A stretch of DNA of 64,000 nucleotides from a virus. This document shows positions 5,404 through 52,389 of the stretch, one piece after another. The position numbers and the translations under genes were made by a program. Location: the IMG/VR virus record IMGVR_UViG_3300021168_000002, positions 1 through 64,000 of that record; one strand, 5' to 3'. How positions within the stretch are numbered: position 1 is the stretch's first letter; every line of letters starts with the position of its first letter. The notes under the pieces are model-generated. The model worked only from the letters and a program-made list of their open reading frames with translations, was not told the DNA's origin and did not search any database.

Positions 5404-5477
5404 CGAGGGTTCTGATAGTGGTAGTCTCCGGGCGTCGGAAGCCTGTGGCGTGTGTTCGATTCACACATCTTCGACCA
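5404..5477 (+). tRNA. tRNA-Pro(CGG)
   Basis: Acceptor CGAGGGT/ATCTTCG pairs fully with G-U pairs. The anticodon arm CGGGC-GTCGGAA-GCCTG gives CGG. The T-arm GTGTG/CACAC carries loop TTCGATT. CCA is encoded. Confidence 0.85.
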
Positions 5478-5485
5478 TCTTTAAT

Positions 5486-5575
5486 CGGGGTGTAGGTCCG
5501 TAATCTGGCAGCGGTCCTGCTTTGGAAGCAGGTGGACAAACTCCCTTGGAGGTTCAATTCCTCTCGCCCCGACCA
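5486..5575 (+). tRNA. tRNA-Pro(TGG), long variable region
   Basis: Acceptor CGGGGTG/CGCCCCG, anticodon arm CCTGC-TTTGGAA-GCAGG (TGG), T-arm GGAGG/CCTCT, CCA encoded. The variable region is about 15 nt and five nt separate acceptor and D-stem. At 90 nt it is unusually long for tRNA-Pro. Confidence 0.75.
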
Positions 5576-5576
5576 A

Positions 5577-5640
5577 ATTTCTCGGACCAACATCCGAGGA
5601 GTAGTGAAAAGTTCTCGGACTTAAACCGAGTGGCTGGTGC
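5577..5640 (+). repeat. Twin hairpins with identical CTCGG/CCGAG stems
   Basis: Two successive hairpins, each CTCGG-loop-CCGAG (loops of 8 and 7 nt), lie between tRNA-Pro and the HNH leader. The shared stem suggests a duplicated RNA or protein-binding element. Confidence 0.45.
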
Positions 5641-5679
5641 AGCATCGGATTCGGGCTTACCCTAAAAAGGGAGGTTCGA

Positions 5680-6060
5680 ATGGATAATAAGCAGCAGCAA
5701 CTAGGAGTCCCGTTTGGGACGGCCTGCCATCAACTCAGAAAGGAAATTCTTTTCGAGTTGATAAGAGAAGTGAAAAAGGATTCCTGTTTTCGATGCGGTA
5801 AGCAGATTGAGTCTAGTCGAGATTTCTCGATAGATCATAAGGAGCCGTGGTTGCACAGCAGTGAACCGAAAGTATTGTTCTTCTCTTTGACGAACATTTC
5901 TTTCAGTCACAGATCATGCAATACAAACGCCCGTCGAATTACAAGGAAGTATTCGCCCGAAGAAGCGATACAAGTTCGGAGAGCACAAACAGCCGCGTAT
6001 ATGAGAAGGACATACACGGAAAGAAAGCGCCGAAGGAAATATCAAATAACCGGGCACTGA
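5680..6060 (+). CDS. HNH endonuclease, paralogue of gene at 7662
   Basis: 126 residues. CFRCGK near residue 38, the SIDHKEPW block and SHRSCN form an HNH zinc-finger core. The region from LGVPFGTA through SHRSCN matches the 7662 protein (LGMPQGTA to SHLDCN), so they arose by duplication. The start is fixed by GGGAGG 6 nt upstream; that SD sits in a small CCCT/AGGG hairpin. The stop is 7 nt before tRNA-Asn, mirroring its paralogue, which ends 7 nt before tRNA-Val. Probably a homing endonuclease living in the tRNA array. Confidence 0.75.
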   Translation: MDNKQQQLGVPFGTACHQLRKEILFELIREVKKDSCFRCGKQIESSRDFSIDHKEPWLHSSEPKVLFFSLTNISFSHRSCNTNARRITRKYSPEEAIQVRRAQTAAYMRRTYTERKRRRKYQITGH

Positions 6061-6067
6061 GTTCAGT

Positions 6068-6143
6068 TCCATTCTGGTCCAATTGGTAGGACACCTCACT
6101 GTTAATGAGGAGGGTCTCCGTTCGAGTCGGAGGGATGGAGCCA
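6068..6143 (+). tRNA. tRNA-Asn(GTT)
   Basis: Acceptor TCCATTC/GGATGGA, D-stem GTCC/GGAC, anticodon arm CCTCA-CTGTTAA-TGAGG, T-loop TTCGAGT, discriminator G, CCA encoded. Confidence 0.92.
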
Positions 6144-6151
6144 ATTTCTGC

Positions 6152-6226
6152 AGAGATAGGGTCAGTTGGTAACGACGTTTCCCTGTCACGGAAAAAGTAC
6201 GGGTCCGATTCCCGTTATCTCTGCCA
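6152..6226 (+). tRNA. tRNA-Asp(GTC)
   Basis: Acceptor AGAGATA/TATCTCT, anticodon arm TTTCC-CTGTCAC-GGAAA, discriminator G (Asp identity), CCA encoded. Confidence 0.9.
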
Positions 6227-6456
6227 AAACTTTCCTCGAACGGCACCACTGTGTTAGCTGGCCTCAACTAAGAGGCTAAGCAACGGAGGCAGGCAGGGGA
6301 ACGATGTTGTACAACAGAGAGTCAAACACAGCCGGGTAGCTCCCGCGCGCGTGGCCTCGTCGACTGGTAAGGGGCATGCACTCTCGGTCTCTGTAAACAG
6401 GGACCCAAAGCGCGTCCGGGGGCCGCGCGTTGATAAGTAGCTCCTCGGATTTCTAT
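6227..6456 (+). ncRNA. 230-nt structured gap in tRNA array
   Basis: No ORF or intact tRNA. Visible helices: TTAG...CTAA around CCTC/GAGG (6254-6280 region), GGTCTCTG-TAAA-CAGGGACC (8 bp) and a long closing helix in which CGCGCGTGGCC faces GGCCGCGCG. The last part has a weak tRNA look (loop CTGTAAA) but no T-arm or CCA. Either a decayed tRNA plus spacer or a separate stable RNA. Confidence 0.35.
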
Positions 6457-6541
6457 TGCCTCTTGGCGGAACGAATACGCACTTGTCTTAGAAACAAGCG
6501 CCCGGAAGGGATTGAGAGTTCAAGTCTCTCAGGGGCAACCA
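6457..6541 (+). tRNA. tRNA-Leu(TAG)
   Basis: Acceptor TGCCTCT/AGGGGCA, anticodon arm CTTGT-CTTAGAA-ACAAG, class II variable arm, T-arm GAGAG/CTCTC, CCA encoded. Confidence 0.92.
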
Positions 6542-6548
6542 ATTTTGT

Positions 6549-6623
6549 GGGCCTGTCGTTCAATGCACAGGACGTCGCACTTCTAAGGCGACTATGGGAG
6601 TTGAATTCTCCCCGGGCCTTCCA
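6549..6623 (+). tRNA. tRNA-Arg(TCT)
   Basis: Acceptor GGGCCTG/CGGGCCT, D-stem GTTC/GGAC, loop CTTCTAA, T-arm GGGAG/CTCCC, CCA encoded. The next 85 nt (6624-6708) hold two hairpins and no gene. Confidence 0.88.
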
Positions 6624-6708
6624 ATTTTTTCCGTGCCGTGGGCGCAACGTCGGCACTTAAAGGTTGCGAGACGCGTTGTTCCGCGCAACGGGGAATTCAA
6701 TTTTCAGA

Positions 6709-6783
6709 GGGCTGCTAGTCCATCGTACACGACGGGACGCTACGAACGTCCAGAGCGGAGTTAGACTCTCCGGTGGCCTTCCA
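6709..6783 (+). tRNA. tRNA-Arg(ACG)
   Basis: Acceptor GGGCTGC/GTGGCCT with G-U pairs, anticodon arm GGACG-CTACGAA-CGTCC, T-arm CGGAG/CTCCG, CCA encoded. A34 would need host TadA to become inosine. Confidence 0.88.
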
Positions 6784-6824
6784 AATTTAATCCTCGTGCC
6801 ATATTTACAGCACGAGTAAATATT

Positions 6825-6911
6825 CGCTTGCTGGCGGAACCGGCAGACGCAGCGGATTCAAAACCCGCCGCCCGAAAGGGCGTCAGAGTTCGACTCTCTG
6901 GTGAGCGACCA
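6825..6911 (+). tRNA. tRNA-Leu(CAA)
   Basis: Acceptor CGCTTGC/GTGAGCG, loop TTCAAAA, class II arm with CCC-GAAA-GGG, T-loop TTCGACT, CCA encoded. A 7-bp CTCGTGC/GCACGAG hairpin lies just upstream (6793-6816). Confidence 0.9.
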
Positions 6912-6946
6912 GTTTTGTCAAGGTTAAGACCTTGATTGTCAAGTTT

Positions 6947-7020
6947 GCGCGAATCGACAAGTGGTAAGTTAGGTGTCTGCAAAACACCCATCGTGTGTTC
7001 GATTCACACTTCGCGCTCCA
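6947..7020 (+). tRNA. tRNA-Cys(GCA)
   Basis: Perfect acceptor GCGCGAA/TTCGCGC, anticodon arm GGTGT-CTGCAAA-ACACC, discriminator T as required for Cys, CCA encoded. Confidence 0.93.
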
Positions 7021-7459
7021 AGTTTGTCGGCCCTATTCACGAGGTCTCGCCCAGCGCGCGGCAATCGAAGTAGACAAGTCGAATCGTTTTGGCGCGGCGC
7101 GGTTAACGAAAAACTATGCCGAAGATTTTGGTAGCGTAGACGAACGCGGCGGTAAGCCCTCGGTGAAATACTCCAAGGCGCGTCGAGGAAATTCAGGACA
7201 CGTCTCAACAGAGTGCCGTGGAAGATGCGGGGCGCGTAAGCGTTCGGGTAAGGGCTGGTGCCCTTGAGAGCACACTAACTCAGTTAAGGTGCCTTTAAGA
7301 GCCATTCGAGTCAGCGAACTCCACACTCGTGCAAGCGCAAATAGGCTCTGACCGCTTGTTGAGCGGGATGACGAGCGGGTAGCGTGCTTCGCGAAAGCGA
7401 CTTGAGAGGAATGTTCGTCCTCGACAGAATCCTGATTATAGCGTCACCAAAACTACAGT
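7021..7459 (+). ncRNA. About 430-nt non-coding structured region
   Basis: The longest gene-free interval of the tRNA array. No ORF here has an SD or plausible composition. Many local helices are visible: AAGGGC-TGGT-GCCCTT (about 7249-7264), GCAC...TAAC-TCA-GTTA...GTGC (about 7271-7293), CCGCT/AGCGG (about 7351-7365), GAGGA/TCCTC (about 7406-7422). Large ornate RNAs such as GOLLD and ROOL are known beside phage tRNA clusters, but I cannot match this one to them and it is shorter. It could also be several smaller RNAs. Confidence 0.4.
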
Positions 7460-7534
7460 GGACCCGAGGTGTTACGGTTGCATACTCGGCTCTTAACCGA
7501 TTTGGTGTGGGTTCGAATCCCACCGAGTCCACCA
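7460..7534 (+). tRNA. tRNA-Lys(CTT)
   Basis: Acceptor GGACCCG/CGAGTCC (one mismatch), loop CTCTTAA, T-arm GTGGG/CCCAC with TTCGAAT, CCA encoded. Confidence 0.88.
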
Positions 7535-7544
7535 AATTTTCTGT

Positions 7545-7620
7545 GCATTGCGGACGCGAGCGGCAGCGTACTCGCCTTTTAAGCGACGGAGTTCCAGTTC
7601 GAGCCTGGAGCGATGCACCA
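7545..7620 (+). tRNA. tRNA-Lys(TTT)
   Basis: Acceptor GCATTGC/GCGATGC, D-stem ACGC/GCGT, loop CTTTTAA, T-arm TCCAG/CTGGA, CCA encoded. Confidence 0.9.
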
Positions 7621-7661
7621 ATTTTACAAACACATAAATCTACAGCCAGAGGCTAACGACT

Positions 7662-8081
7662 ATGTCAAACGCAAGAACACAGAGAGTCATCGAGACTCTC
7701 GGGATGCCACAAGGCACCGCGATGAATAGACTTCGTAAGATGGTTCTATTCAGGCAATTGAAAAAGTACCGAGACAATATATGTGCTCGATGTGAAAAAG
7801 AAATCGAGACGGTGGATGAACTGAGCATAGAGCACGTCAGACCGTGGGAAGGTCGCTCTGCCGAGTTGTTCTGGGATATGGACAACGTCGCATTCTCTCA
7901 TTTGGATTGCAACCGTCAGCATATTTATCATGGTGGGGTATCTAAAAGAAAAATTGCGCCAGAAGGCATGTCATGGTGTGTCGGTCACAAAAAGTTTGAA
8001 CCAATCGGAAACTTCAATGTCGACAAAGGACGTTGGACTGGACTACAGCATTATTGCAAAGAACTCCGATTGGATAGGTAG
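7662..8081 (+). CDS. HNH endonuclease, paralogue of gene at 5680
   Basis: 139 residues with CARCEK (about residue 42), SIEHVRPWEG and SHLDCN forming the HNH core, plus a C-terminal extension with a further Cys pair (WCVGH...HYC). It aligns with the 5680 protein over most of its length. It ends 7 nt before tRNA-Val and follows tRNA-Lys by 41 nt, so it is embedded in the array like its paralogue. The SD is poor (AGAGG about 10 nt upstream). Probably a homing endonuclease targeting a tRNA-linked site. Confidence 0.72.
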   Translation: MSNARTQRVIETLGMPQGTAMNRLRKMVLFRQLKKYRDNICARCEKEIETVDELSIEHVRPWEGRSAELFWDMDNVAFSHLDCNRQHIYHGGVSKRKIAPEGMSWCVGHKKFEPIGNFNVDKGRWTGLQHYCKELRLDR

Positions 8082-8088
8082 GTTCAAT

Positions 8089-8164
8089 ACGAGGCTGGCA
8101 GATAGGCACTATGCACCAGTCCTACACACTGGCTAGAGAGGTTCGATTCCTCTGCTTCGTACCA
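8089..8164 (+). tRNA. tRNA-Val(TAC) with C33
   Basis: Acceptor ACGAGGC/GCTTCGT, anticodon arm CCAGT-CCTACAC-ACTGG, T-loop TTCGATT, CCA encoded. Position 33 is C in place of the near-universal T. Confidence 0.8.
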
Positions 8165-8173
8165 ATTTTCAGT

Positions 8174-8248
8174 TCCTCGTTCGTCTAATGGCGAAGGCCC
8201 GATTCTTATAAAGTCGAGACGATGGTCCGATTCCATCACGAGGCACCA
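8174..8248 (+). tRNA. tRNA-Ile(TAT)
   Basis: Acceptor TCCTCGT/ACGAGGC with a terminal mismatch, loop CTTATAA, T-loop TCCGATT, CCA encoded. Reads AUA. Confidence 0.85.
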
Positions 8249-8253
8249 TCTTT

Positions 8254-8339
8254 GCGCGTGTGGCGGAATGGCATACGCAGGGGACTTAAAACCCCCGGCC
8301 CGAAAGGGATTGTGGGTCCGACTCCCACCTAGCGCACCA
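8254..8339 (+). tRNA. tRNA-Leu(TAA)
   Basis: Anticodon arm GGGGA-CTTAAAA-CCCCC, class II arm with CCC-GAAA-GGG, T-arm GTGGG/CCCAC, CCA encoded. The acceptor has two mismatches. Confidence 0.85.
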
Positions 8340-8342
8340 AAC

Positions 8343-8470
8343 TTCCGATCACGGGCATCTACCGTGTGAGACGTCCACTAAGGGCGAGGCGTGCTGAGTA
8401 TCGCGCGTGAGAAAGGCACGAGGCTAGCCCTCGGGCGATTCGGCTGGGACGCGCCGATGAGGAAGACCGA
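8343..8470 (+). ncRNA. Structured non-coding unit between tRNA-Leu and tRNA-Glu
   Basis: About 130 nt without an ORF. CACGG/CCGTG forms a hairpin at its 5' end, GAGG-CTA-CCTC-type pairing lies in the middle, and a GAGGAA motif near the 3' end recurs in other units of the array. No T-arm or CCA. Confidence 0.35.
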
Positions 8471-8477
8471 TTTCTGT

Positions 8478-8553
8478 GGCGATGTCATCTAGTGTTCTAG
8501 GATTCCTGATTCTCAATCAGGCCACACGGGTTAGAATCCCGTCGACGCTACCA
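8478..8553 (+). tRNA. tRNA-Glu(CTC)
   Basis: Anticodon arm CCTGA-TTCTCAA-TCAGG, T-arm ACGGG/CCCGT with TTAGAAT, CCA encoded; acceptor GGCGATG/CGACGCT has one mismatch. Confidence 0.85.
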
Positions 8554-8603
8554 AAGTTCGAAGCACCGTAGAATAATATGCTCGTTGAGCAACGGAGAAC
8601 ATT

Positions 8604-8807
8604 ATGATCGCAAATCACTGTATCGAGATTGAAGAACAAGGAGACGGCACGTATGTCTATCCGGTTCTAAATTATAAGAGAGCGCGCGGTTGGCACTTGT
8701 ATGTTTACAAGGATGGCTCCGCTGATCTCTTCATGAAAGTAGGACCACACGGGGCGCTGTTGGGGAAGCCATTCAGACTTCCGGCACCGATAGTGATTGT
8801 GCAATAG
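8604..8807 (+). CDS. Small unrecognised protein, 67 aa
   Basis: SD GGAGAAC precedes the ATG. Short beta-strand pattern (YVYPVLNY, WHLYVYKDG, FRLPAPIVIV), no membrane segment or Cys cluster. First CDS after a run of tRNAs; probably on the same transcript. Function unknown. Confidence 0.6.
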   Translation: MIANHCIEIEEQGDGTYVYPVLNYKRARGWHLYVYKDGSADLFMKVGPHGALLGKPFRLPAPIVIVQ

Positions 8808-8815
8808 GAATAGAG

Positions 8816-8902
8816 ATGACAGTCATATTTGAGATCATCGGAGGCACACTGTTTGTGCTTCTGCTCGCTGCTTGGTTCTTCAAGGCACCGAAGGGCGAAT
8901 AA
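8816..8902 (+). CDS. 28-aa single-span membrane microprotein
   Basis: ATG at 8816 with AGGAATAGAG upstream. MTVIFEIIGG then FVLLLAAWFF forms one membrane helix, ending KAPKGE. The clear SD, codon integrity and tight packing (8 nt after the previous stop, 9 nt before tRNA-Glu) support a real gene. Could be a holin-like or membrane-modulating peptide; unproven. Confidence 0.5.
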   Translation: MTVIFEIIGGTLFVLLLAAWFFKAPKGE

Positions 8903-8911
8903 ATTTTCAGT

Positions 8912-8986
8912 GGCGCAGTCTGCTATGGGTTAGGCATCGTGCCTTTCAAGCACGAAGACAGAGTTCGAGTCTCTGCTACGCTACCA
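8912..8986 (+). tRNA. tRNA-Glu(TTC)
   Basis: Anticodon arm CGTGC-CTTTCAA-GCACG, T-arm CAGAG/CTCTG, CCA encoded; acceptor GGCGCAG/CTACGCT has one mismatch. Confidence 0.88.
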
Positions 8987-8992
8987 CTTTAT

Positions 8993-9065
8993 GGGCTGAG
9001 AGTAGGACGGGTATACGTCTCGCTTGCACCGAGAAAAAGGGGTTCGACTCCCCATCGGTCCACCA
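8993..9065 (+). tRNA. tRNA-Ala(TGC)
   Basis: Acceptor GGGCTGA/TCGGTCC, anticodon arm TCTCG-CTTGCAC-CGAGA, T-arm GGGG/CCCC with TTCGACT, CCA encoded. A 5-codon ORF with a good SD follows at 9082-9099. Confidence 0.86.
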
Positions 9066-9115
9066 ATTTTAAGGAGATAACATGACATGTATTAGGTAAA
9101 CCTACGGAGGTTTCA

Positions 9116-9430
9116 ATGTCAAAAAGTTATCGCAAGCCGTACTCTGCCATCACAGGCGTGAGATCAGCGGCGCACGACAAGATGGTTGCTCGCCGCTGCT
9201 GGCGTCGGGCGCAAGAGCAGGCAATCAGGGATTGCAAAGATTGGGAAGAACTAGTCATCCCGAAACGCCTGGAAGCAAGTTTCAACGATGTGTGGTCTTG
9301 GGGTCGCGACGGGAAGCAGACGTTGCAGTTCCCCCCGACACTCGAAAAGTTTTGGCCTTGGAGTTTCTGCACCGCTGAAGAAGACTATCAACATCAGCTT
9401 CTTTGGTACGCAAGACTTCAACGTAAATAA
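9116..9430 (+). CDS. Basic Trp-rich protein, 104 aa
   Basis: SD GGAGG 6 nt before the ATG. The N-terminal half is very basic (RRCWRRAQEQAIRD), and the C-terminal half has four Trp and acidic residues. No recognised motif. The basic start suggests nucleic-acid contact. A five-codon ORF with a strong SD just upstream might act as a leader. Lies between tRNA-Ala and tRNA-Ile. Confidence 0.58.
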   Translation: MSKSYRKPYSAITGVRSAAHDKMVARRCWRRAQEQAIRDCKDWEELVIPKRLEASFNDVWSWGRDGKQTLQFPPTLEKFWPWSFCTAEEDYQHQLLWYARLQRK

Positions 9431-9438
9431 GTTTCAAT

Positions 9439-9514
9439 TTCCCGGTAGCTCAGTGGCTAGAGCACTCGCCTGATAAGCAAGGGGTCGTTGGTCCGAATCC
9501 AACCTGGGGAACCA
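9439..9514 (+). tRNA. tRNA-Ile(GAT)
   Basis: Acceptor TTCCCGG/CTGGGGA, D-stem GCTC/GAGC, loop CTGATAA, T-arm GTTGG/CCAAC, CCA encoded. Confidence 0.9.
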
Positions 9515-9536
9515 TTTTCGTCCTGATCGGTGATCT

Positions 9537-9779
9537 ATGACGATAGCAGACGCAGCCTCGGTTGCAGCACTGGCGGTCGACTTAGTAGCCTTATACTTTC
9601 TAATCAGCATCTGGAAAGATGATCGTGCGATGCGAGTCGCAGCGGAGGAGAGTCTGAAGGCTCAACTCGAATATTTGGGATTGCGACGAAAGTGGTATGA
9701 CGGTCGCAACAAGAAAAAGGACGAAAAGAATGTCGCTCAGCTTAGATCAGAAAATGGCGCTGACGCGAACAGTCTGTAA
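9537..9779 (+). CDS. Single-span membrane protein with charged helix
   Basis: 80 residues. One N-terminal membrane helix (about 8-26, VAALAVDLVALYFLISIW) followed by a strongly charged helix to the end. This N-in anchor plus helix plan is shared by spanin subunits and small phage membrane proteins. Its 3' end overlaps another small membrane gene in a different frame (9730-9834), an arrangement typical of holin/antiholin or Rz/Rz1 pairs, though no lipobox is present. Confidence 0.55.
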   Translation: MTIADAASVAALAVDLVALYFLISIWKDDRAMRVAAEESLKAQLEYLGLRRKWYDGRNKKKDEKNVAQLRSENGADANSL

Positions 9780-9834
9780 CGTTCTGGGCGTCATCATCTC
9801 AGTCGTGTATGTGATCTGGGTGATGAGCAAATAA
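9730..9834 (+). CDS. 34-aa membrane microprotein nested over the previous gene
   Basis: ATG 9730 with AAGGACG about 10 nt upstream, overlapping the previous CDS by 50 nt in another frame. A single hydrophobic span (VLGVIISVVYVIWVM) occupies the C-terminal half. Size and overlap suggest a lysis-type partner of the 9537 protein; function unproven. Confidence 0.45.
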   Translation: MSLSLDQKMALTRTVCNVLGVIISVVYVIWVMSK

Positions 9835-9843
9835 AGTTTCAGT

Positions 9844-9930
9844 TGTAGGGTCGACTAGTGGCCGATGTCGCGGGTCTCATAAGCCCGATGCGAAAGCACA
9901 CCGCCAGTTCGAATCTGGCCCCTGCAACCA
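9844..9930 (+). tRNA. tRNA with CAT anticodon and long variable arm
   Basis: Acceptor TGTAGGG/CCCTGCA, D-stem GAC/GTC, anticodon arm CGGGT-CTCATAA-GCCCG (CAT), a 15-nt variable arm with a TGC-GAAA-GCA hairpin, T-arm GCCAG/CTGGC, discriminator A, CCA encoded. Normal Met and Ile2 tRNAs have short variable loops; charging identity is uncertain. Confidence 0.8.
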
Positions 9931-9938
9931 ATTTCTGA

Positions 9939-10012
9939 GCGAGCTTGGCATATAGGTTGTGCCCTGGTCTTCCAAGCCGGAGAAGCGAGTTCGAGTCTCG
10001 CAGTTCGCTCCA
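9939..10012 (+). tRNA. tRNA-Gly(TCC)
   Basis: Acceptor GCGAGCT/AGTTCGC, loop CTTCCAA, T-arm GCGAG/CTCGC, discriminator T, CCA encoded. Confidence 0.9.
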
Positions 10013-10027
10013 TTTTTAGGAGAATTA

Positions 10028-10375
10028 ATGTTCACACCTCCAGTAGGCACATGGACAGCAGGACAGACGGTTCTCTTGGCTGCACTAAGTTTTACAAGTC
10101 TCGTCGCGGTGTTGGGTGATGCTTACACCACCATGATCGGTCTGCAGCACGGCTTTGTGGAAGGCAACCCGGTCATGAAGTTTCTTTTTGCAAAGATTGG
10201 CCAGTCGTTGAGCGCGTTCCTTAGCGCGGTAGCGGTCCTGGGCGTCGGAGCGGTAATCGCGGCTCATAACCTCGGCGCAGGATATGCATTCCTAGCTGGC
10301 GTCTCCGTTGTCGAAGGCATTCAGGTTATCAGAAATTTTCTGAAGCTGAAGGCATCAAAGATTTCTTTGAAGTAA
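10028..10375 (+). CDS. Multi-span membrane protein, DUF5658-like
   Basis: 115 residues from ATG 10028 (SD AGGAGAAT); the longer in-fr­ame form to 9959 would overlap tRNA-Gly. Three hydrophobic segments (about 14-32, 58-80, 84-103) separated by a polar loop with GDAYTTMIGLQHG and EGNPVMKF. The D-x-x-T/T and E-x-NP pattern recalls DUF5658 membrane proteins, which occur in phages and bacteria without known function. Ends 9 nt before tRNA-Thr. Confidence 0.6.
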   Translation: MFTPPVGTWTAGQTVLLAALSFTSLVAVLGDAYTTMIGLQHGFVEGNPVMKFLFAKIGQSLSAFLSAVAVLGVGAVIAAHNLGAGYAFLAGVSVVEGIQVIRNFLKLKASKISLK

Positions 10376-10384
10376 AAGTTTTGA

Positions 10385-10458
10385 GCCTAGATAGTCTAGT
10401 GGCAGAATTCCTCCTTGGTAAGGAGGAGGCCGTGGTCCGATTCCACGTCTTGGCTCCA
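10385..10458 (+). tRNA. tRNA-Thr(GGT)
   Basis: Anticodon arm CCTCC-TTGGTAA-GGAGG, T-loop TCCGATT, discriminator T, CCA encoded. Only 2 nt separate it from the next tRNA. Confidence 0.88.
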
Positions 10459-10460
10459 GA

Positions 10461-10536
10461 GCATGGTTCATACAGCGGCCTAGTATGCGAAGCTTGTACC
10501 TTCGACACGGTGGTTCGAATCCATCACTTTGCTCCA
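10461..10536 (+). tRNA. tRNA-Thr(TGT)
   Basis: Anticodon arm CGAAG-CTTGTAC-CTTCG, T-arm GGTGG/CCATC, CCA encoded; acceptor GCATGGT/ACTTTGC has one mismatch. Confidence 0.88.
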
Positions 10537-10543
10537 ATTTTAA

Positions 10544-10618
10544 GCGGGATTCGTATAGTGGTTTGTACGAGACCTTGCCAAGGTTTAGGCACCAGTTCGA
10601 TTCTGGTATCTCGCTCCA
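10544..10618 (+). tRNA. tRNA-Gly(GCC)
   Basis: Acceptor GCGGGAT/ATCTCGC, loop TTGCCAA, T-arm ACCAG/CTGGT, discriminator T, CCA encoded. Confidence 0.9.
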
Positions 10619-10634
10619 ACTTTTAGGAGAACGC

Positions 10635-10874
10635 ATGGCAACAACGCCAGTAGTGCCAGTACCAGACGGTAGCCAGAGCAATCCGTTTCCCGCAGGCTCA
10701 TTCAAGTACGGCGACAAAGCCGTGAATGGTCCGATCTATTACGACGACGGCAGCGTGCTTATGCCTTCCTACAACGGAATGCTCAACACGCCAATTGCAA
10801 AGCAGAAGCCGCCGCAGCCGCCCTCATGGTGGCCAGCGCGTCTAGCAGCATGGTTTCGCGCGCACGTAAAGTAA
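10635..10874 (+). CDS. Pro/Gly-rich small protein, 79 aa
   Basis: ATG 10635 behind AGGAGAACGC. Rich in Pro, Gly, Tyr and Asp in the first 55 residues (probably extended), with a short amphipathic Trp/Arg helix at the end (WWPARLAAWFRAHVK) that could touch a membrane. Flanked by tRNA-Gly and tRNA-Thr. No family recognised. Confidence 0.58.
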   Translation: MATTPVVPVPDGSQSNPFPAGSFKYGDKAVNGPIYYDDGSVLMPSYNGMLNTPIAKQKPPQPPSWWPARLAAWFRAHVK

Positions 10875-10882
10875 AGTTTTGA

Positions 10883-10956
10883 GCACTGCTGGTCCAGTGG
10901 CAGGACACTTCCTTCGTAAGGCAGAGGCAACTGTTCGATTCAGTTGTGGTGCTCCA
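10883..10956 (+). tRNA. tRNA-Thr(CGT)
   Basis: Acceptor GCACTGC/GTGGTGC, D-stem GTCC/GGAC, loop TTCGTAA, T-arm AACTG/CAGTT, CCA encoded. Confidence 0.9.
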
Positions 10957-10964
10957 AGTTTCAT

Positions 10965-11052
10965 GGATGGTTCGCATAGCGGCAATTGCTCGTGTCTGTA
11001 AAACACGCGCCCCATGTGGGCTTCGAACGTTCGAGTCGTTCACTATCCACCA
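10965..11052 (+). tRNA. tRNA-Tyr(GTA)
   Basis: Acceptor GGATGGT/ACTATCC, anticodon arm CGTGT-CTGTAAA-ACACG, class II variable arm, T-arm GAACG/CGTTC, discriminator A, CCA encoded. Confidence 0.93.
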
Positions 11053-11060
11053 GTTTCAGC

Positions 11061-11135
11061 GGGTCGCAAGTGTTAGTGGCAGCATCTTCGGCTCCAACCC
11101 GAAGGGTGGCGGTTCGAGTCCGTCGCTTCCCGCCA
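11061..11135 (+). tRNA. tRNA-Trp(CCA)
   Basis: Anticodon arm TTCGG-CTCCAAC-CCGAA, discriminator G (Trp identity), T-loop TTCGAGT, CCA encoded; two mismatches in the acceptor. Confidence 0.87.
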
Positions 11136-11146
11136 AAATTTTGTAC

Positions 11147-11194
11147 ATCTATAAGTTGACAAACGAGAGTTATTTGTCAATCTATAAGTTGACA
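11147..11194 (+). repeat. 15-bp direct repeat with internal inverted repeat
   Basis: ATCTATAAGTTGACA occurs at 11147-11161 and 11180-11194. TTGACAAA (11156-11163) and TTTGTCAA (11173-11180) form an 8-bp inverted repeat between them. TTGACA resembles a -35 box, but no -10 box is spaced correctly. Possible regulator site, processing element or scar of an insertion. Confidence 0.5.
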
Positions 11195-11195
11195 T

Positions 11196-11281
11196 GGAAC
11201 GGTGCCGAAACGGTAGCCGGACAAGTTTGCTAAACTTGCGACCGAGAGGTCGTGAAGGTTCGACTCCTTCTCGTTCCGCCA
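11196..11281 (+). tRNA. tRNA-Ser(GCT)
   Basis: Acceptor GGAACGG/TCGTTCC, anticodon arm CAAGT-TTGCTAA-ACTTG, class II arm GACC-GAGA-GGTC, discriminator G, CCA encoded. Confidence 0.93.
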
Positions 11282-11417
11282 ATTTAATCTTGATGTTGTT
11301 CCATCGCGTGGTGCTGCCGGACTAGAAGGACGTTACCCGGGCGACGCGATCATGCCTCGGACCCGTGGGAGCTTAGGGTGATGACCTTCACGAGGAGGAC
11401 TCATCTGTAACGGGCAA
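11282..11417 (+). ncRNA. 136-nt structured non-coding unit
   Basis: Sits between tRNA-Ser genes and is followed by the AAATTTT linker. ATCGCGT pairs with ACGCGAT to close a first domain containing CCGG/CCGG; CCTCG pairs with CGAGG to close a second, followed by GGAGGAC. No ORF, T-arm or CCA. The linker and helices argue for a separate stable RNA. Confidence 0.4.
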
Positions 11418-11424
11418 ATTTTAC

Positions 11425-11511
11425 GGAGGGCAGCTAGCAACGGTGCTTAACTGTCTTGAAAACAGAGACACGCTCACGCGTGACAGGGTTCGACTCCTTG
11501 GCTCTCCGCCA
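11425..11511 (+). tRNA. tRNA-Ser(TGA)
   Basis: Acceptor GGAGGGC/GCTCTCC, loop CTTGAAA, class II arm CACGC/GCGTG, T-arm CAGGG/CCTTG, discriminator G, CCA encoded. Confidence 0.9.
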
Positions 11512-11526
11512 TTTGAAGGAACAACA

Positions 11527-11712
11527 ATGACTCAAGAGCAGGCAGATAAAATCGACGTCTCATTGATTCGAGAACTGAAACAACAATTCATTTCTCATAA
11601 CTTGCTGCCTCATGAGTTTACGTTCACACAGTTTGATTTGGGAAAACTGAAAGTCACCTGTAAGTATGGTGAGTTCTCAAACCCACACGCATTTACTATT
11701 GAACTTATTTAA
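11527..11712 (+). CDS. Small unrecognised protein, 61 aa
   Basis: ATG 11527 with GAAGGAAC upstream; a longer in-frame ORF runs back into tRNA-Ser and is rejected. A helical first half (SLIRELKQQFISHNLL) is followed by beta strands (HEFTFTQFDLGKLKVTC). Ends just before tRNA-Phe. Function unknown. Confidence 0.55.
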   Translation: MTQEQADKIDVSLIRELKQQFISHNLLPHEFTFTQFDLGKLKVTCKYGEFSNPHAFTIELI

Positions 11713-11713
11713 T

Positions 11714-11787
11714 CCCCTGCAGGTGTAAGGGTTGCACCCTCCGCTGAAGACGGAGAAGACACCGCTCGACTCGGTGGCTCGGGACCA
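11714..11787 (+). tRNA. tRNA-Phe(GAA)
   Basis: Anticodon arm CTCCG-CTGAAGA-CGGAG, D-stem GTGT/GCAC, T-arm CACCG/CGGTG (loop CTCGACT), CCA encoded; two acceptor mismatches. Confidence 0.83.
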
Positions 11788-11795
11788 GTTTCTAT

Positions 11796-11870
11796 TGCTC
11801 TCTCGTCTAATTGGGAGGACCTCGGACTTTGAATCCGAAGATGAAGGTTCGAGTCCTTCATGAGCAACCA
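11796..11870 (+). tRNA. tRNA-Gln(TTG)
   Basis: Anticodon arm TCGGA-CTTTGAA-TCCGA, T-arm GAAGG/CCTTC, CCA encoded; two mismatches at the inner end of the acceptor. Confidence 0.87.
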
Positions 11871-11875
11871 ATCTC

Positions 11876-11953
11876 GGGTCGTCGGTCTGGTACTTTGAGG
11901 AAGCAGCGCGATGTGACCTCGGAGGAAAAGGACCCCATCGCCTTAGTAGGGAC
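11876..11953 (+). ncRNA. 78-nt closed non-coding unit before tRNA-Gln(CTG)
   Basis: GTCGTC and GACGAC close the unit, GCGATG/CATCGC forms an inner helix around GGAGGAAAAGG, and TTTTATTT follows directly. This could be a small stable RNA or a terminator-like element. No tRNA features. Confidence 0.42.
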
Positions 11954-11968
11954 GACTTTTATTTCAAT

Positions 11969-12043
11969 TGCCAGATAGTGCAACCGGTAGCACGCCGCTC
12001 TCTGAAAGCGGAAGTTTTGGTCCGAATCCAAATCAGGCAACCA
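11969..12043 (+). tRNA. tRNA-Gln(CTG)
   Basis: Anticodon arm CCGCT-CTCTGAA-AGCGG, T-loop TCCGAAT, CCA encoded; one acceptor mismatch. Last tRNA of the array. Confidence 0.88.
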
Positions 12044-19677: not shown

Positions 19678-19728
19678 GGGAGGATTGTGCCAGTAACACA
19701 GTTCTCCTGATCGCTCTTTACTGGAGAG
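19678..19728 (+). promoter_or_regulatory. Conserved two-hairpin leader of HNH gene
   Basis: An 11-bp hairpin starting GGAG (about 19679) and ending CTCC (about 19707) with loop CCAGTAA is followed by CTCT (19714-19717) pairing with AGAG (19725-19728), which contains part of the SD. The leader at 25741 has the same order, loop and spacing with compensating base changes. Confidence 0.6.
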
Positions 19729-19732
19729 TTTT

Positions 19733-20305
19733 ATGAATGACAAAGAAAAAGCTAGATGCTTACATAACCATCTTCGCCAATATTGTAGGGAATGCAAACT
19801 CCTCAGTATCGGCGGTTCTTCAATTTGCGAACACGACCACGTTCGTGCAGTATGTAAAGATTGTAAAATTTTGGGAATCGGCGGCGGCAGTATTTGTGAA
19901 CACGATAAGCCGCGCCACTATTGTGAGAAGTGCGGCGGCATCGGAGTATGTGACCACGGCAAGCGAAGAAATAATTGCAAAAGATGTGGTGGTTTTACTC
20001 GTCTTGCTACTTCGATGTATCAGAGCGCTAGAAGGCGGGCGTTAAAGAAAGACCTACCTTTTGATTTGTCTAAGAATGATATTTTGGAATTAATCGGGGA
20101 CGGGCACTGCCCGGTTTTTAATACACCGTTCGAAATGCTCCCAGGACTTACAGGCGCGTCAGCGTCTTTGGACAGATTCGTTCCTAAACTTGGATATGTG
20201 AAAGGAAATTGTTTTGTGATTTCCTATCTAGCCAATACAATAAAACAAAACGCAACGGCTGAACAAATACAGCTTGTTGCTGACTGGATGAGAAGGCAAC
20301 AATAG
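19733..20305 (+). CDS. HNH endonuclease with four zinc repeats
   Basis: 190 residues. Residues 9-87 contain four repeats of C-x-H-x-x-x-R-x-x-C-x-x-C type (CLHNHLRQYCREC, CEHDHVRAVCKDC, CEHDKPRHYCEKC, CDHGKRRNNCKRC), likely DNA-binding zinc modules. The C-terminal half matches the HNH subtype with CPVFNTPFE, ASLDRFVPKLGYVKGNCFVI and SYLANTIKQNAT. Probably a homing endonuclease between terminase and portal. Its own promoter and a structured leader sit just upstream. Confidence 0.8.
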   Translation: MNDKEKARCLHNHLRQYCRECKLLSIGGSSICEHDHVRAVCKDCKILGIGGGSICEHDKPRHYCEKCGGIGVCDHGKRRNNCKRCGGFTRLATSMYQSARRRALKKDLPFDLSKNDILELIGDGHCPVFNTPFEMLPGLTGASASLDRFVPKLGYVKGNCFVISYLANTIKQNATAEQIQLVADWMRRQQ

Positions 20306-20332: not shown

Positions 20333-22435
20333 ATGAGCGATATCGACCAGCAGATAGCGGGATTGGAAACGGAGAAGGCCGCCGAGATCACCACAGAAAA
20401 TACGTACATCGACTCGGAGACCGGAACCATACAGTTCAACGACACGGCTGCGATCAACCTCGTTCTCAACAACACAGAACTGGCAGACAATTTCATCAAC
20501 ATCAATCAGTGGGCCAGCGGTTGGACGATGTCCGACTTGCTTTATCAGTCGCCCATTTCCACCAATGATATTGGTGGCGGCACCGACGTAGCGAACTCGG
20601 CAGTGCCGAAGTTCATGGTTTCGAATCACATTAGCTCCATCGTTCCGAAGATCATGGGCGGCATCTTTTATGAAGACCCGTGTTTCCTTCTACGACCAAG
20701 TCCGGGTACCACGCCGGAAGTCATCCAGGCAAAGACTGCGATGTTCAATTTCCAACTCAAGGCCATGCGCTTCGAGGAAGAGATAGAACGCGGGCTTGAG
20801 CAGATGGCTCTGCTTGGCACCGGTATTTGGAAGTGGGGCTATACTGAGTACCAGAAGACCGAAAAGAAATACAAGCGCTACGCGCCGAAGGTTCACGCAC
20901 CGTCTGGTATTGAGACCGCACCGATTGATACGCCGGACTCAGACGACTTCGAGATCGAGTTCTACAAGAAGACTGTTTCCCATCCGTGGCTTAAGTTCTG
21001 CGATATCCGCACAGTCCTTGTGGACCCAGGCTGCCGCTGCGGTGATATCCGTACGGCGAAGTGGGTTGTTTACCGCGACTATGCGACGTACCAAGATTTG
21101 GACCGTCTGCGCGGCGTAGAGGGTTACAACATTCCGGAAGAAGATGTCCTTCGTCGTATGTTCGAGAAGGCAACGTCACCGGGACCAGACAATATTTCTA
21201 TGACCATCCCGGAAGGGATGATGGGCTACTTGCAGCATTCGAAGCCCCGCAGCTACAAGACTTCGGCGGACCCGAACAGAGCGCCGCTGGAAATCTTAGA
21301 GCATTGGGATGATGAGAAAGTCATAGTGGTCTTGATCTTCAACGGCCATAATATTTTGATTCGCAATGAAGTCAACCCGTACAGCAAGATTCCGTTCTAC
21401 TCGGCCAACTGGCGCAACATCCCAGACAGTTTCTACGGTCAGGGACTCGGACTGCTAATCGGCAGCGAGCAGATTGTGGAGCAGGGTGTAACCAACCTTG
21501 CGCTCGACTTGCTAGCTTACTGCTTGCAACCTGTGGCGCTACGCAAGAGAGGTTTTAACGCACCGACACAGAACACACGCTGGGAGCAAGGCGGCATCAT
21601 AGACGTCGAAGAAGACGTTGAGAAGGCTTTCAAGTTCCTACAAATGCCGACCCCTCCTCAAGAGGCATTTGCGTTCATCCAGCAATCTCAGTCCGCTGGC
21701 GCAGCAACATCGGGCGCTAACGAGCAGGTAGTGCAGGGCGCTGGTCATGCAGGCATCAGTACGACGGGTATGAGATCAGGCACGGGCGCGGCGGCGGTTG
21801 TCGCGGCGAACGCGTCTCGTCTAGATGGCCCGACCGGACGATTCGTCCGTCAGGTCTTTGAACCTTGGCTCTTTCAGATGGACGATCTCGACAACGATTT
21901 GTTGCCGACATCGGTCATTAAGGATATCTTGGGCGAGAAGATCGGTAACGATTTCAAAGTCGATCATATCGCATACCGCAATGCGAAGGTCGAGTATGAA
22001 GTTCTCGCAGGAGCAAACCTCGGGGCCAAGAAAGAAATGGCACAAGCACTTCCAGTGATGATACAACTTCTCAATAACCCAACGTTCACGGCAAACGCCA
22101 ACGATGCTGGGTACCAGTTCGACGCAGTCGCTATCTTCCAAGCATTCACTGATGCAGCAGGCTGGAAGTTCAGCCAAGCCTTCCTACGTGAGATGACGGA
22201 AGTAGAGAAGCAGAAGCACGACGCGAACAGTCCAGCGGCTATGCAGGCGGCGCAGATGAAGAACGCGCAAGACATGCAGCAGCAGAAGTTCGAACAAGAA
22301 CAGGTGATGGAGAATCAGAAGCAACTTGGAAAGGCAGGCAACGAAGCCTTCCGTTCTTCAATCGAGAAATCAACAGCACCCGGTTTGGGTGCCCCAGATA
22401 ACACACAAGGCTTCGGCGCAACCACCGCACTTTAA
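20333..22435 (+). CDS. Portal protein
   Basis: 700 residues, start behind GAGGCG. Location after terminase and before scaffold and capsid, plus motifs of podovirus-type portals (MALLGTGIWKWGYTEY about 160; DPGCRCGDIRTAKWVVYRDY; NIPDSFYGQGLGLLIGSEQI about 365; a Gln/Met-rich C-terminal helix about 620-670), support the call. The portal forms the ring through which DNA enters and the tail attaches. The Gln-rich tail probably forms the barrel. No interruption is seen. Confidence 0.8.
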   Translation: MSDIDQQIAGLETEKAAEITTENTYIDSETGTIQFNDTAAINLVLNNTELADNFININQWASGWTMSDLLYQSPISTNDIGGGTDVANSAVPKFMVSNHISSIVPKIMGGIFYEDPCFLLRPSPGTTPEVIQAKTAMFNFQLKAMRFEEEIERGLEQMALLGTGIWKWGYTEYQKTEKKYKRYAPKVHAPSGIETAPIDTPDSDDFEIEFYKKTVSHPWLKFCDIRTVLVDPGCRCGDIRTAKWVVYRDYATYQDLDRLRGVEGYNIPEEDVLRRMFEKATSPGPDNISMTIPEGMMGYLQHSKPRSYKTSADPNRAPLEILEHWDDEKVIVVLIFNGHNILIRNEVNPYSKIPFYSANWRNIPDSFYGQGLGLLIGSEQIVEQGVTNLALDLLAYCLQPVALRKRGFNAPTQNTRWEQGGIIDVEEDVEKAFKFLQMPTPPQEAFAFIQQSQSAGAATSGANEQVVQGAGHAGISTTGMRSGTGAAAVVAANASRLDGPTGRFVRQVFEPWLFQMDDLDNDLLPTSVIKDILGEKIGNDFKVDHIAYRNAKVEYEVLAGANLGAKKEMAQALPVMIQLLNNPTFTANANDAGYQFDAVAIFQAFTDAAGWKFSQAFLREMTEVEKQKHDANSPAAMQAAQMKNAQDMQQQKFEQEQVMENQKQLGKAGNEAFRSSIEKSTAPGLGAPDNTQGFGATTAL

Positions 22436-24247: not shown

Positions 24248-25485
24248 ATGAGTGGTCCGAACCCATCAGGGTCAAACGTAGCAAACGTATTAACCGCGCA
24301 AGCGATCATCTTCGATAAGGAACTCATCCCGAACTTGAAGGGCAACACCAACGCATTCGTTGGCGCTGCTGAACGTCGCGTGCAGGGTCTCCACATGGGC
24401 GTGAACCGTACGTTTTTCCAGTACAACACGCTATCTGGTGACATCATCCAGAATTCTGACGGCACCGTGGGCAACCCGGAAGTCATCAGCCAGCTTAGCT
24501 CACCGGCTCAGATCGGTGAGTGGAACAACTATGCCAACTTTTCTTCGTTCGCGATTGCAGCGGCGATTGACGAGTTGGTCGGCAACAGCGCAGTCGAACT
24601 CGGCTACCAAGCTGGGCAATCGATCAGCGAACTGTACAGCGCAGTTGCTGACAGCGCGTCCGGCGTGGACTCACAGGTTAACCAGAGCAGCTTGCTGGCG
24701 TCACCTTTCACGCTTGACCTTGGCACCATCCGTGAATTGAAGCAGCAGCTTGTTTCAAAGAACGTGTTGCCTTGCAAGCGCGGTATGTTCCTAGGCGCAA
24801 TCAGCCCCAACGTGTTGGGCGACATCTACAACGCCACGACTGTGAACAACAGCATCGCGGATTTGTGGAAGTACGAGAACATGGAGAAGTTTGATGCGAT
24901 GGCAGGCAGCGACCAGAACAAGGTCATTGTTCTACCGGGCACCAACATCGGCTTCATGCAGACTCCGTTCGTCACAACCACCGCTAACTACAGCGGCACC
25001 GGCAAGATCGGCTACCGCACATACGTCTTCGGCAATTACGCGATGATCGGTGTGTGGCTTCAGGTCCCGGGCGACACAGACCTCGATGACGGCGATTGGA
25101 AGACAATCGATTGTCGAGTGGTCACAGACGCACCGGCATCGAGCTTCGACCCCGTATCTACCATCGGTGGCTTAACAGCATAGGCCACAGTAAATTTTCT
25201 CTGATTGACTCGAAACCTGAAACGGCAACGAGGCGGAAGCCGAAAGGCACCGTGAACGACTAAGCGAGAAAACGACCTTCTGACAATAGGTCGATGCAAT
25301 AGTCTGAACATACGGGAAACAAACCGTATGAACCGAACAGAAATGATTCGGTACACGAAAGTGTTAACAAGATTGGGTGCAGTTACAAGTTTCACCAAAC
25401 CGTGACTTTGCCGCCCGCAACTGGCGTCAACACGCAGCGTATTCGTTACATTGATAGCGTTCAATATGGACTCCTAGCAGCGTAA
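24248..25485 (+). CDS. Major capsid protein, gene split by a group I intron
   Basis: Exon 1 runs from ATG 24248 to about 25172 (or 25168); exon 2 runs from about 25376 (or 25372) to the stop at 25485. Either junction pair keeps the frame and gives 344 residues: 925+110 or 921+114 nt, both 345 codons. Exon 1 alone would stop at 25183 within intron sequence. Features fit an HK97-type capsid (NRTFFQYNTLSGDIIQ early; MQTPFVTTTANYSGTGKIGY; MIGVWLQVPGDTDLDD); exon 2 supplies the final strands (FHQTVTLPPATG, RIRYIDSVQYGLLAA). A GC hairpin precedes the start. Functional identification is by position, size and composition. Confidence 0.75.
25173..25375 (+). ncRNA. Group I intron 1 in capsid gene (about 203 nt)
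   Basis: The core GGCGGAAGCCGAAAGGC, GAACGACTAAGCGAG and GATGCAATAGTCTG is that of group I introns: GACTA/TAGTC is P7 and GACC/GGTC is P8. Three 3' hairpins follow (CATACGG/CCGTATG, ACCGAA/TTCGGT, CAC-GAAA-GTG). P1 can form between exon TGGCT and AGGCCA with the conserved U-G pair, and P10 between GCAT and GTGC. Boundaries 25169-25371 are the alternative. It contains no ORF. Confidence 0.8.
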
Positions 25486-25671
25486 TCTGCTAGTAGATAA
25501 TTTGCTCTGATTGACTTGGAAGCTGAAATGCTAACAAGGCGGAAGCCGAAAGGCACCGTGAACGACTAAGCGAGCGAACGCCCTTCGGGGCGATGCGATA
25601 GTCTGCTCTTACAGGAAACAAAACTGTAAGAGGTCGGCAGAAATGACCGGCCCCGCGAAAGCGGTAACAAG
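25474..25671 (+). ncRNA. Group I intron 2, second copy at capsid 3' end
   Basis: Shares the core of intron 1 (CTCTGATTGACT, GGCGGAAGCCGAAAGGC, GAACGACTAAGCGAG, GATGCGATAGTCTG, ending GGTAACAAG). P8 and the 3' hairpins differ with compensating changes (TCTTACAG/CTGTAAGA; CCGC-GAAA-GCGG). A CTAGCAG/CTGCTAG hairpin covering the capsid stop codon may be its P1, but the splice-site pair would be C-G instead of U-G, so the 5' boundary is uncertain. Confidence 0.68.
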
Positions 25672-25707
25672 TGGCCTGCTATTCAGTAACGAGTGAAAAC
25701 TTTTCCC

Positions 25708-25736
25708 TTGACAAGCGTTGCAACGCGCGTTAAGGT
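25708..25736 (+). promoter_or_regulatory. Sigma70-type promoter for GIY-YIG gene
   Basis: TTGACA, 17-bp spacer with GTTGCAAC, TAAGGT. Near-copy of the promoter at 19641 in sequence and in distance to the gene. Confidence 0.68.
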
Positions 25737-25740
25737 TAAG

Positions 25741-25792
25741 ATTGATGGGGTGTGCCATGAACACACCCCTCAATCACTCTTTCATGGAGAGT
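25741..25792 (+). promoter_or_regulatory. Conserved two-hairpin leader of GIY-YIG gene
   Basis: GGGGTGTG (25747-25754) pairs with CACACCCC (25762-25769) across loop CCATGAA. ACTCT (25776-25780) then pairs with AGAGT (25788-25792), covering part of the SD. It is homologous to the leader at 19678 although the downstream enzymes are unrelated. Confidence 0.6.
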
Positions 25793-25794
25793 AA

Positions 25795-26391
25795 ATGATA
25801 GTCTATTTGATTACAAACAAGAAGAACGGCAAGAAATACGTTGGACAACACGCCGGTATAGATTTGGAGTCCTATTGGCGCAGGAATGTTTGGTTAGCCG
25901 AAACGGGCTATCAAGGTAAGCGCCTTCTCTATCGCGCGATTCGAAAGTACGGCGCTGACGGATTTGAGGTGAAGCCTCTTGTTATTGTCGGAACAAAGCA
26001 AGAGATGGACCTGTACGAAATTGGCTTGATTAAATCATGGGACACCACGGACCCCAAGAAGGGGTATAACATTACGCACGGCGGGAACGGCTCTCTGGGA
26101 GTTAAGATGAGCAAAGAAACCCGCGCCAAGATGTCCGCGTCTCGTATCGGACTGGTGATGCCAGAGAGCCATCGACAGAAGTTATCTCAGCGTAGCATGG
26201 GTAACAAATACGCTCTCGGTAGGAAGATGTCCGAAGACAATTTTCAGAAACTGATGGCCGTTCATGTCGGCGCAAAACGTACTGACGAAGCGCGCCAGCG
26301 AATGTCCGATTCCCACAAAGGCAAGAAGGCATCAGAAGAAACGAAGCAGAAGATGAGAGCATCACAGCAGCGTCGTCGAGCAGCACAATAA
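25795..26391 (+). CDS. GIY-YIG homing endonuclease with NUMOD3 repeats
   Basis: 198 residues. MIVYLITNKKNGKKYVGQ is the GIY-YIG strand pair, YWRRN and LLYRAIRKYGADGF follow, and the E in DLYEIGLIKSW is the likely metal ligand. From about residue 98 four to five NUMOD3 motifs (GVKMSKETRAKMSASR; ALGRKMSEDNFQKL; GAKRTDEARQRMSDSH; GKKASEETKQKMRAS) give DNA specificity. Placed directly after the second intron, it probably drives homing of one or both introns or of its own segment. It has its own promoter and an SD-sequestering leader. Confidence 0.85.
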   Translation: MIVYLITNKKNGKKYVGQHAGIDLESYWRRNVWLAETGYQGKRLLYRAIRKYGADGFEVKPLVIVGTKQEMDLYEIGLIKSWDTTDPKKGYNITHGGNGSLGVKMSKETRAKMSASRIGLVMPESHRQKLSQRSMGNKYALGRKMSEDNFQKLMAVHVGAKRTDEARQRMSDSHKGKKASEETKQKMRASQQRRRAAQ

Positions 26392-52338: not shown

Positions 52339-52386
52339 GCCGGGAGCGCCTGAATCGCTTCCGGCCTCTTTCTATTCAGGAGAAAG
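52339..52386 (+). promoter_or_regulatory. GC hairpin plus SD-hiding hairpin before HNH
   Basis: GCCGGGAGCG pairs with CGCTTCCGGC (52339-52365) and is followed by CTCTTTCT, so it may terminate upstream transcripts. CTTTCT (52368-52373) can pair with AGAAAG (52381-52386), enclosing the GGAG of the SD. This repeats the leader design of other endonucleases here. Confidence 0.5.
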
Positions 52387-52389
52387 AAA

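Follow-up and report, generated by a model that had tools for sequence, protein, structure and literature searches.

Two small group I introns in the major capsid gene of a soil-type phage and the endonuclease gene beside it

The interrupted capsid gene

The window, the whole stretch of DNA analysed here, comprises bases 1-64000 of a virus record of 101,724 bases. Downstream of a portal protein gene (20333-22435) lies a capsid open reading frame (ORF) on the + strand at 24248-25183 that ends early at a stop codon, as the initial annotation had stated. Searches of this ORF itself against Pfam and PHROG returned no match. With the major head protein of Tunturiibacter phage Tunturi_3, which infects a soil bacterium, the capsid protein nevertheless shares 37% identity over 99% of its length, and a more distant capsid relative (L092) matches the PHROG major head protein family phrog_1357. 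The phage represented in the window is of a soil type. It also carries 26 predicted tRNA genes, almost a complete set, clustered at 5404-12043. The relatives of the capsid gene comprise 80 viral loci, for each of which a spliced-protein alignment was made; a plasmid collection searched for capsid relatives contained none. The gene and its neighbor are arranged as follows.

24248-25172, + strand: capsid exon 1, codons 1-308 and the first base of codon 309, from the spliced alignment with 80 relatives and the likeness to Tunturi_3
25173-25375, + strand: group I intron 1, 203 nt, insertion site 308.1, no internal ORF
25376-25461, + strand: capsid exon 2, 86 nt
25462-25674 (or 25461-25673), + strand: group I intron 2, 213 nt, insertion site 336/337, no internal ORF
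25675-25689, + strand: capsid exon 3, PAIQ and the true stop codon TAA, from the IDSVPAIQ* end of intronless relatives
25795-26391, + strand: gene for a freestanding GIY-YIG/NUMOD3 homing endonuclease of 198 aa, immediately after the capsid gene

Intronless relatives (91-97% identity) read ...TIGGWCSYKFHQTVTLPPATG...RIRYIDSV..., then PAIQ*, and in these relatives both junctions are uninterrupted (...TIGG|WCSYKFHQ...IDSV|PAIQ*). In the window the same protein is regained only by excising 25173-25375 together with 25462-25674, or with 25461-25673, which leaves the same protein. The spliced product is 341 aa long and up to 97% identical to intact relatives. Its true stop codon is at 25687-25689, and intron 2 lies before it.

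Comparison with intron-free homologues had been proposed at the outset as a check on the introns, and it bears them out, as the homologues read through both junctions and continue to PAIQ*. More specifically, the extent first given for intron 1 (25173-25375) agrees with the read-through in intronless relatives. The alternative boundary of 25169-25371 is disfavored, because the relatives have GGWCSYKF at this point and a 6-bp P1 forms with the first boundary. A further candidate, starting at 25173 and ending at 25371 (conserved AACAAG), was rejected because it breaks the frame seen in relatives. Removal of 25173-25375 had been expected to yield a protein of 344 residues; a frame of 344 codons does open, but its terminal QYGLLAA* is intron sequence and the protein is 341 aa. 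Intron 2 does not reach only to 25671, as first drawn, nor does it cover the stop codon, which lies in the exon 25675-25689 in keeping with the IDSVPAIQ* end of relatives.

Structure and group I identity of the introns

Both introns contain the parts of a group I ribozyme, located as follows on the + strand.

25167-25188, + strand: intron 1 P1, exon GUGGCU (25167-25172) with internal guide GGCCAC (25183-25188), 6 bp, U.G at the splice site
25195-25201 / 25266-25272, + strand: intron 1 P3, enclosing P4-P6, from covariation
25258-25262 / 25300-25304, + strand: intron 1 P7, GACTA/TAGTC, with a bulged base
25273-25277 / 25289-25293, + strand: intron 1 P8, from covariation
25459-25461 / 25469-25471, + strand: intron 2 P1, exon GUU with GAC, weak, only 3 bp
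25474-25480 / 25487-25493, + strand: intron 2 P2 hairpin, from the sequence
25501-25507 / 25572-25578, + strand: intron 2 P3, enclosing P4-P6, from covariation
25564-25568 / 25599-25603, + strand: intron 2 P7, GACTA/TAGTC, from covariation
25579-25583 / 25588-25592, + strand: intron 2 P8, from covariation

The elements named in the initial annotation, P7 (GACTA/TAGTC), P8 and capped 3' hairpins, were thus found in both copies. The claim that two related group I introns interrupt the capsid gene is upheld by the covarying core and by an exact 36-nt core common to both (25232-25267 and 25538-25573), of which 0 are expected in shuffles.

An alignment of 48 introns from capsid genes (A1), with the structure written from group I architecture and P3 crossing P7, has 97.1% of cells paired with the P3/P7 pseudoknot in place, as compared to 35-41% for control versions in which the structure was slid. 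Changes on both sides occur in 39 of 44 pairs, a value reached by 0 of 500 shuffles. The P3-P4-P5-P6-P7-P8 core with its P3/P7 pseudoknot is present, all 7 helices covary, and the nested helices of the core are also recovered by RNAalifold alone. Within P7 the bulge is at alignment position 90, the adjoining pair 89-138 is A-U in 29 introns and G-C in 19, and the pair G91-C137 is invariant (48/48). A boundary that preserves the protein and places U at the end of the exon and G at the end of the intron is possible in all 49 distinct introns, while the random control gives 10%. P1 is strong at certain sites (range 6-9 bp), with 6 bp at site 308 (intron 1), up to 9 at site 315 and up to 8 in some introns at site 29. 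In the P2-bearing subtype, which includes intron 2, exon and guide vary in step: the window has GUU/GAC, L062 has AUU/GAU and L050 has GCU/GGC.

The early stop of the ORF might be taken as a sign of a broken pseudogene or a misassembly, with inserts that are unrelated debris. The identity of up to 97% between the spliced protein and intact relatives speaks against this, as do the 49 distinct inserts, which lie on independent contigs, keep the frame and obey the U...G rule, and the covariation within the inserts, which implies function. This explanation is given almost no credence.

A search with the Rfam group I model RF00028, suggested earlier as a check, found no match in the window at the gathering threshold, at E<=1 or at E<=10, nor did it match in 17 further loci that carry such introns or match the core pattern, even though the same search scores the T4 nrdD intron, used as a positive control, at 105 bits. 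A covariance model built from the window's intron family (R1) was run unfiltered over a 3.1 kb stretch of T4; its best match was the nrdD intron (E 0.0011), in an alignment that stays in register through P3, P8, J8/7, P7 and P9. Because R1 finds the T4 intron while RF00028 misses the family, the family is of group I and far from the Rfam model; the RF00028 miss is a failure of the model and not of the introns.

Additional P7.1/P7.2 elements between P7 and P3 are a feature of T4-like group I introns. The window family shares with the T4-like introns (td, nrdD, nrdB) described by RF00028 the P3-P9 core, the P3/P7 pseudoknot and the exon U and intron G. It differs from them in its small size (about 205 nt) and mostly ORF-less state, in its residence in capsid rather than nucleotide-metabolism genes, and in having 3 nt between P7 and P3 without the extra P7.1/P7.2.

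Both introns are predicted to self-splice in a guanosine-dependent manner. Each intron transcript would fold around P3-P9, the internal guide would pair with the end of the upstream exon (P1), and excision would proceed by two guanosine-initiated steps, such that the exons 24248-25172, 25376-25461 and 25675-25689 are joined to encode the 341-aa capsid protein.

Alternative splicing with a different C-terminus had also been raised. In its most explicit form, only intron 1 would splice and intron 2 would be partly retained, giving a mixture of 341-aa (PAIQ) and 344-aa (QYGLLAA) capsid proteins; when left unspliced, intron 2 indeed continues the reading frame for 7 residues before a stop, with similar wording in L045, L052 and L062. 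Yet the sequence that spells QYGLLAA is the P1-P2 element, which is found again in introns elsewhere in the gene, where it lies in a different frame (L050, L073), and its conservation is therefore explained at the RNA level. Moreover, the core of intron 2 is as complete and covarying as that of intron 1, and relatives without an intron at that site end in PAIQ or a close variant, so that both introns must be removed for the conserved end. Since intron 2 lies before the true stop, an alternative C-terminus lacks support, and partial retention is considered quite improbable.

Distribution of the intron family

On the whole 101,724-base record R1 finds exactly two copies, both in the capsid gene, and on the records of ten relatives it finds six, all placeable ones again in the capsid gene. 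Across the 80 relatives the family occupies capsid residues 20-21, 27, 29, 286, 303, 305, 308, 310, 311, 313, 315, 325, 333 and 336; about a dozen insertion sites are thus used by one intron family in one gene. Tandem introns, which the initial annotation called unusual, are so for phage genes in general but recur in this capsid family (L045, L052, L061, L062, L073, L074, L077 and L082).

Longer inserts also occur. Introns of the same family at residues 20-30 of L027, L028, L060, L061, L067, L069 and L081 measure 769-839 nt and seem to carry an ORF upstream of P3, perhaps an endonuclease. A different insert of 934-944 nt, with its own promoter-like site, is found at capsid residue 92 of L078, L079 and L081; it is probably another group I type and was excluded from the intron alignment.

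A scan for the P7-P8 core pattern, blind to the host gene, gave at least 120 matches in IMG/VR, and the family is therefore common; 25 stretches in bacterial genome contigs also match. Most core-pattern matches were confirmed by R1. Among the matches listed, 118 loci have a strong R1 hit and 111 of these have a usable flanking exon; 43 form the cluster that holds the capsid relatives, and in the 37 of these that were scanned the only PHROG matches are major head protein families (27 match phrog_1357). A further 28 of the matches listed are P22-like coat genes (L087 matches phrog_283, E 7e-52) and 6 more are other major head proteins. The identified non-capsid hosts among the matches listed are 5 portal/connector-like genes, 2 ribonucleotide reductase genes, 1 terminase and 1 tail gene; 5 flanks are endonuclease ORFs, and the others fall in no assigned class. 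Thus, among the matches listed, the intron family resides mainly in the major-capsid genes of unrelated phages; as the core pattern was derived from capsid introns, this tally describes the lineage and not group I introns at large. In L083 (MW202674.1), a phage genome deposited in GenBank, a family intron at 2495-2711 lies under an annotated hypothetical protein, and the P22-like coat gene has been entered as two separate CDS. The ORF over this intron is spurious.

Introns in major capsid genes are known from mycobacteriophage LittleE and lactococcal phage Tuc2009, which carry a group I-type intron there; that of LittleE is spliced during late expression, as proven by RT-PCR, follows the exon U and intron G rule and carries an endonuclease-like ORF, with one intron per gene as described (PMC3706429). 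The present gene differs in having two ORF-less introns, whose splicing is predicted, and in belonging to a family with about a dozen sites across relatives. Small group I introns (~206 nt) have also been described in the Jug huge phages together with many stand-alone endonucleases, with splicing in metatranscriptomes; these introns occur in many different genes, terL and nrdD among them, and were found with published subtype models (PMC12363816). The introns described here are of similar size, whereas the present 101.7-kb record has family introns only in the capsid gene.

Mobility and the downstream endonuclease cassette

Introns 1 and 2 are 72% identical. The closest kin of intron 1 are the same-site introns of L007 and L017 (82%), and that of intron 2 is the same-site intron of L045 (88%, with capsid genes 72% identical). 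Both introns thus have their nearest kin at their own insertion site in other phages and therefore arrived independently; origin of the pair by local duplication was rejected on the same grounds and for the low identity of the two copies.

The position of the window's GIY-YIG gene is taken in relatives by a GIY-YIG gene, an EndoVII-type HNH gene (PF02945) or a gene of a third type without Pfam match, or it is empty. Of the 51 loci with an endonuclease gene downstream, 36 carry introns, as against 0 of the 15 loci that lack one (Fisher p 5.8e-7). On the capsid tree the endonuclease requires 12 changes and the introns 20. Correction for relatedness weakens the association: independent contrasts number 4-5 in the same direction and 0 in the opposite one (median p 0.0625), too few for a firm p value to be within reach. 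Intron site also tends to go with endonuclease type (HNH in 8 of 9 loci for site 311, GIY-YIG in 5 of 7 for site 315), a tendency only, in numbers too small for specificity.

In the top same-site pairs introns are 84-100% identical as compared to 69-85% for the capsid genes, and the site-20 introns of L027, L028 and L081 are 100% identical in host genes of 83-85% identity. Over all same-site pairs the mean identities of introns and genes are equal (75% and 74%), and thus only part of the pairs are recent transfers. The nearest intron sits at the same site in 32 of 47 cases. The remaining nearest pairs likely include moves between sites, for example that of intron 2 and the L050 intron at site 310, which are 84% identical.

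These patterns of association and horizontal identity make collaborative homing of the ORF-less introns by the adjacent freestanding endonuclease the most likely explanation. The endonuclease would act in trans, cutting an intronless capsid allele that is then repaired from an intron-bearing allele, and intron and endonuclease gene would travel together. Alternatively the introns may be passive, owing their distribution to vertical inheritance or reverse splicing, while the endonuclease spreads on its own account by targeting the 3' region of the capsid gene and the introns persist by breaking its cut site. Consistent with passive introns are 15 loci that have an endonuclease gene and no intron, a test for co-conversion of exon flanks in which the signal was absent or unclear, and the ectopic kinship of intron 2 and the L050 intron with its compensated guide, which suggests movement at the RNA level. 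However, introns never occur where the endonuclease gene is missing, and same-site introns reach complete identity in clearly diverged genes. Passive inheritance is judged unlikely, though it deserves serious consideration beside collaborative homing.

In collaborative homing as described earlier a freestanding endonuclease and an ORF-less intron share one target (reviewed in PMC3984707). The present arrangement is similar in that an ORF-less intron adjoins a freestanding endonuclease gene and the two co-occur, with cleavage being hypothetical here, and differs in that a single gene is associated with several intron sites and with three or more types of endonuclease. Many of the relatives' endonucleases are EndoVII-type (PF02945), as is the reported motif family of F-CphI (PMC6083498).

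The endonuclease gene of the window is preceded by two further elements.

25708-25736, + strand: promoter-like site of the endonuclease cassette, TTGACA, 17 nt with the GTTGCAAC palindrome, TAAGGT; recurs in relatives
25747-25787, + strand: leader hairpin, loop CCAUGAA (25755-25761) pairing with UUCAUGG (25781-25787) at the ribosome-binding site

A strong sigma-70-like form of the promoter (TTGACA..GTTGCAAC..TAAGAT) with the palindromic spacer stands ahead of endonuclease cassettes in the window and relatives; the palindrome is possibly an operator. The endonuclease leaders form a hairpin in which the 7-nt loop and the ribosome-binding site immediately ahead of the start codon are complementary. 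Across 40 leaders pairing is kept at 97.7% and 13 of the 15 pairs show covariation, loop helix included, the pairing count leaning towards complementarity because the leaders were selected by a search that requires it. The motif occurs exactly three times in the window, each time before an endonuclease-like gene, and never in shuffled sequence.

19690-19735: leader before the HNH gene starting at 19733
25747-25797: leader before the GIY-YIG gene starting at 25795
52349-52392: leader before the HNH-like ORF (by eye) starting at 52390

Behind the third leader is an unannotated ORF of 153 aa (52390-52851) with Cys pairs and an HNH-like LDHIKGNG..CNNCN, a candidate endonuclease. The leader pseudoknot, standing before several freestanding endonuclease families, is a candidate new RNA regulatory element. 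In T4 the ribosome-binding sites of endonuclease genes are hidden in simple hairpins (PMC2988022); a loop pseudoknot common to unrelated nuclease families was not found in the limited open-licence literature searched.

Thus, the capsid gene holds two ORF-less group I introns of a capsid-concentrated lineage that arrived independently and are likely mobilized by an endonuclease acting in trans, a reading to which a probability of about 0.92 is assigned. A more far-reaching proposal, put forward tentatively and at somewhat under even odds, is that an Rfam-invisible, capsid-specialized group I lineage has spread through the major-capsid genes of unrelated phages, switching sites by re-matching its guide and being mobilized in trans by interchangeable freestanding endonucleases (GIY-YIG, EndoVII-type HNH and the third type) that share one mobile cassette with the ribosome-binding-site pseudoknot. 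As compared with the open-licence literature, what is apparently new is that the lineage is invisible to Rfam, that it is concentrated in the capsid genes of phages not related to one another, and that it uses a dozen sites in a single gene.

Because RF00028 misses the family, capsid genes in viral metagenomes are called truncated or split, and many capsid genes in databases are probably misread as broken or too short. The family also links introns that lack an ORF with freestanding endonucleases of several kinds and, with about a dozen insertion sites in one gene, offers a natural series for studying how introns move between sites.
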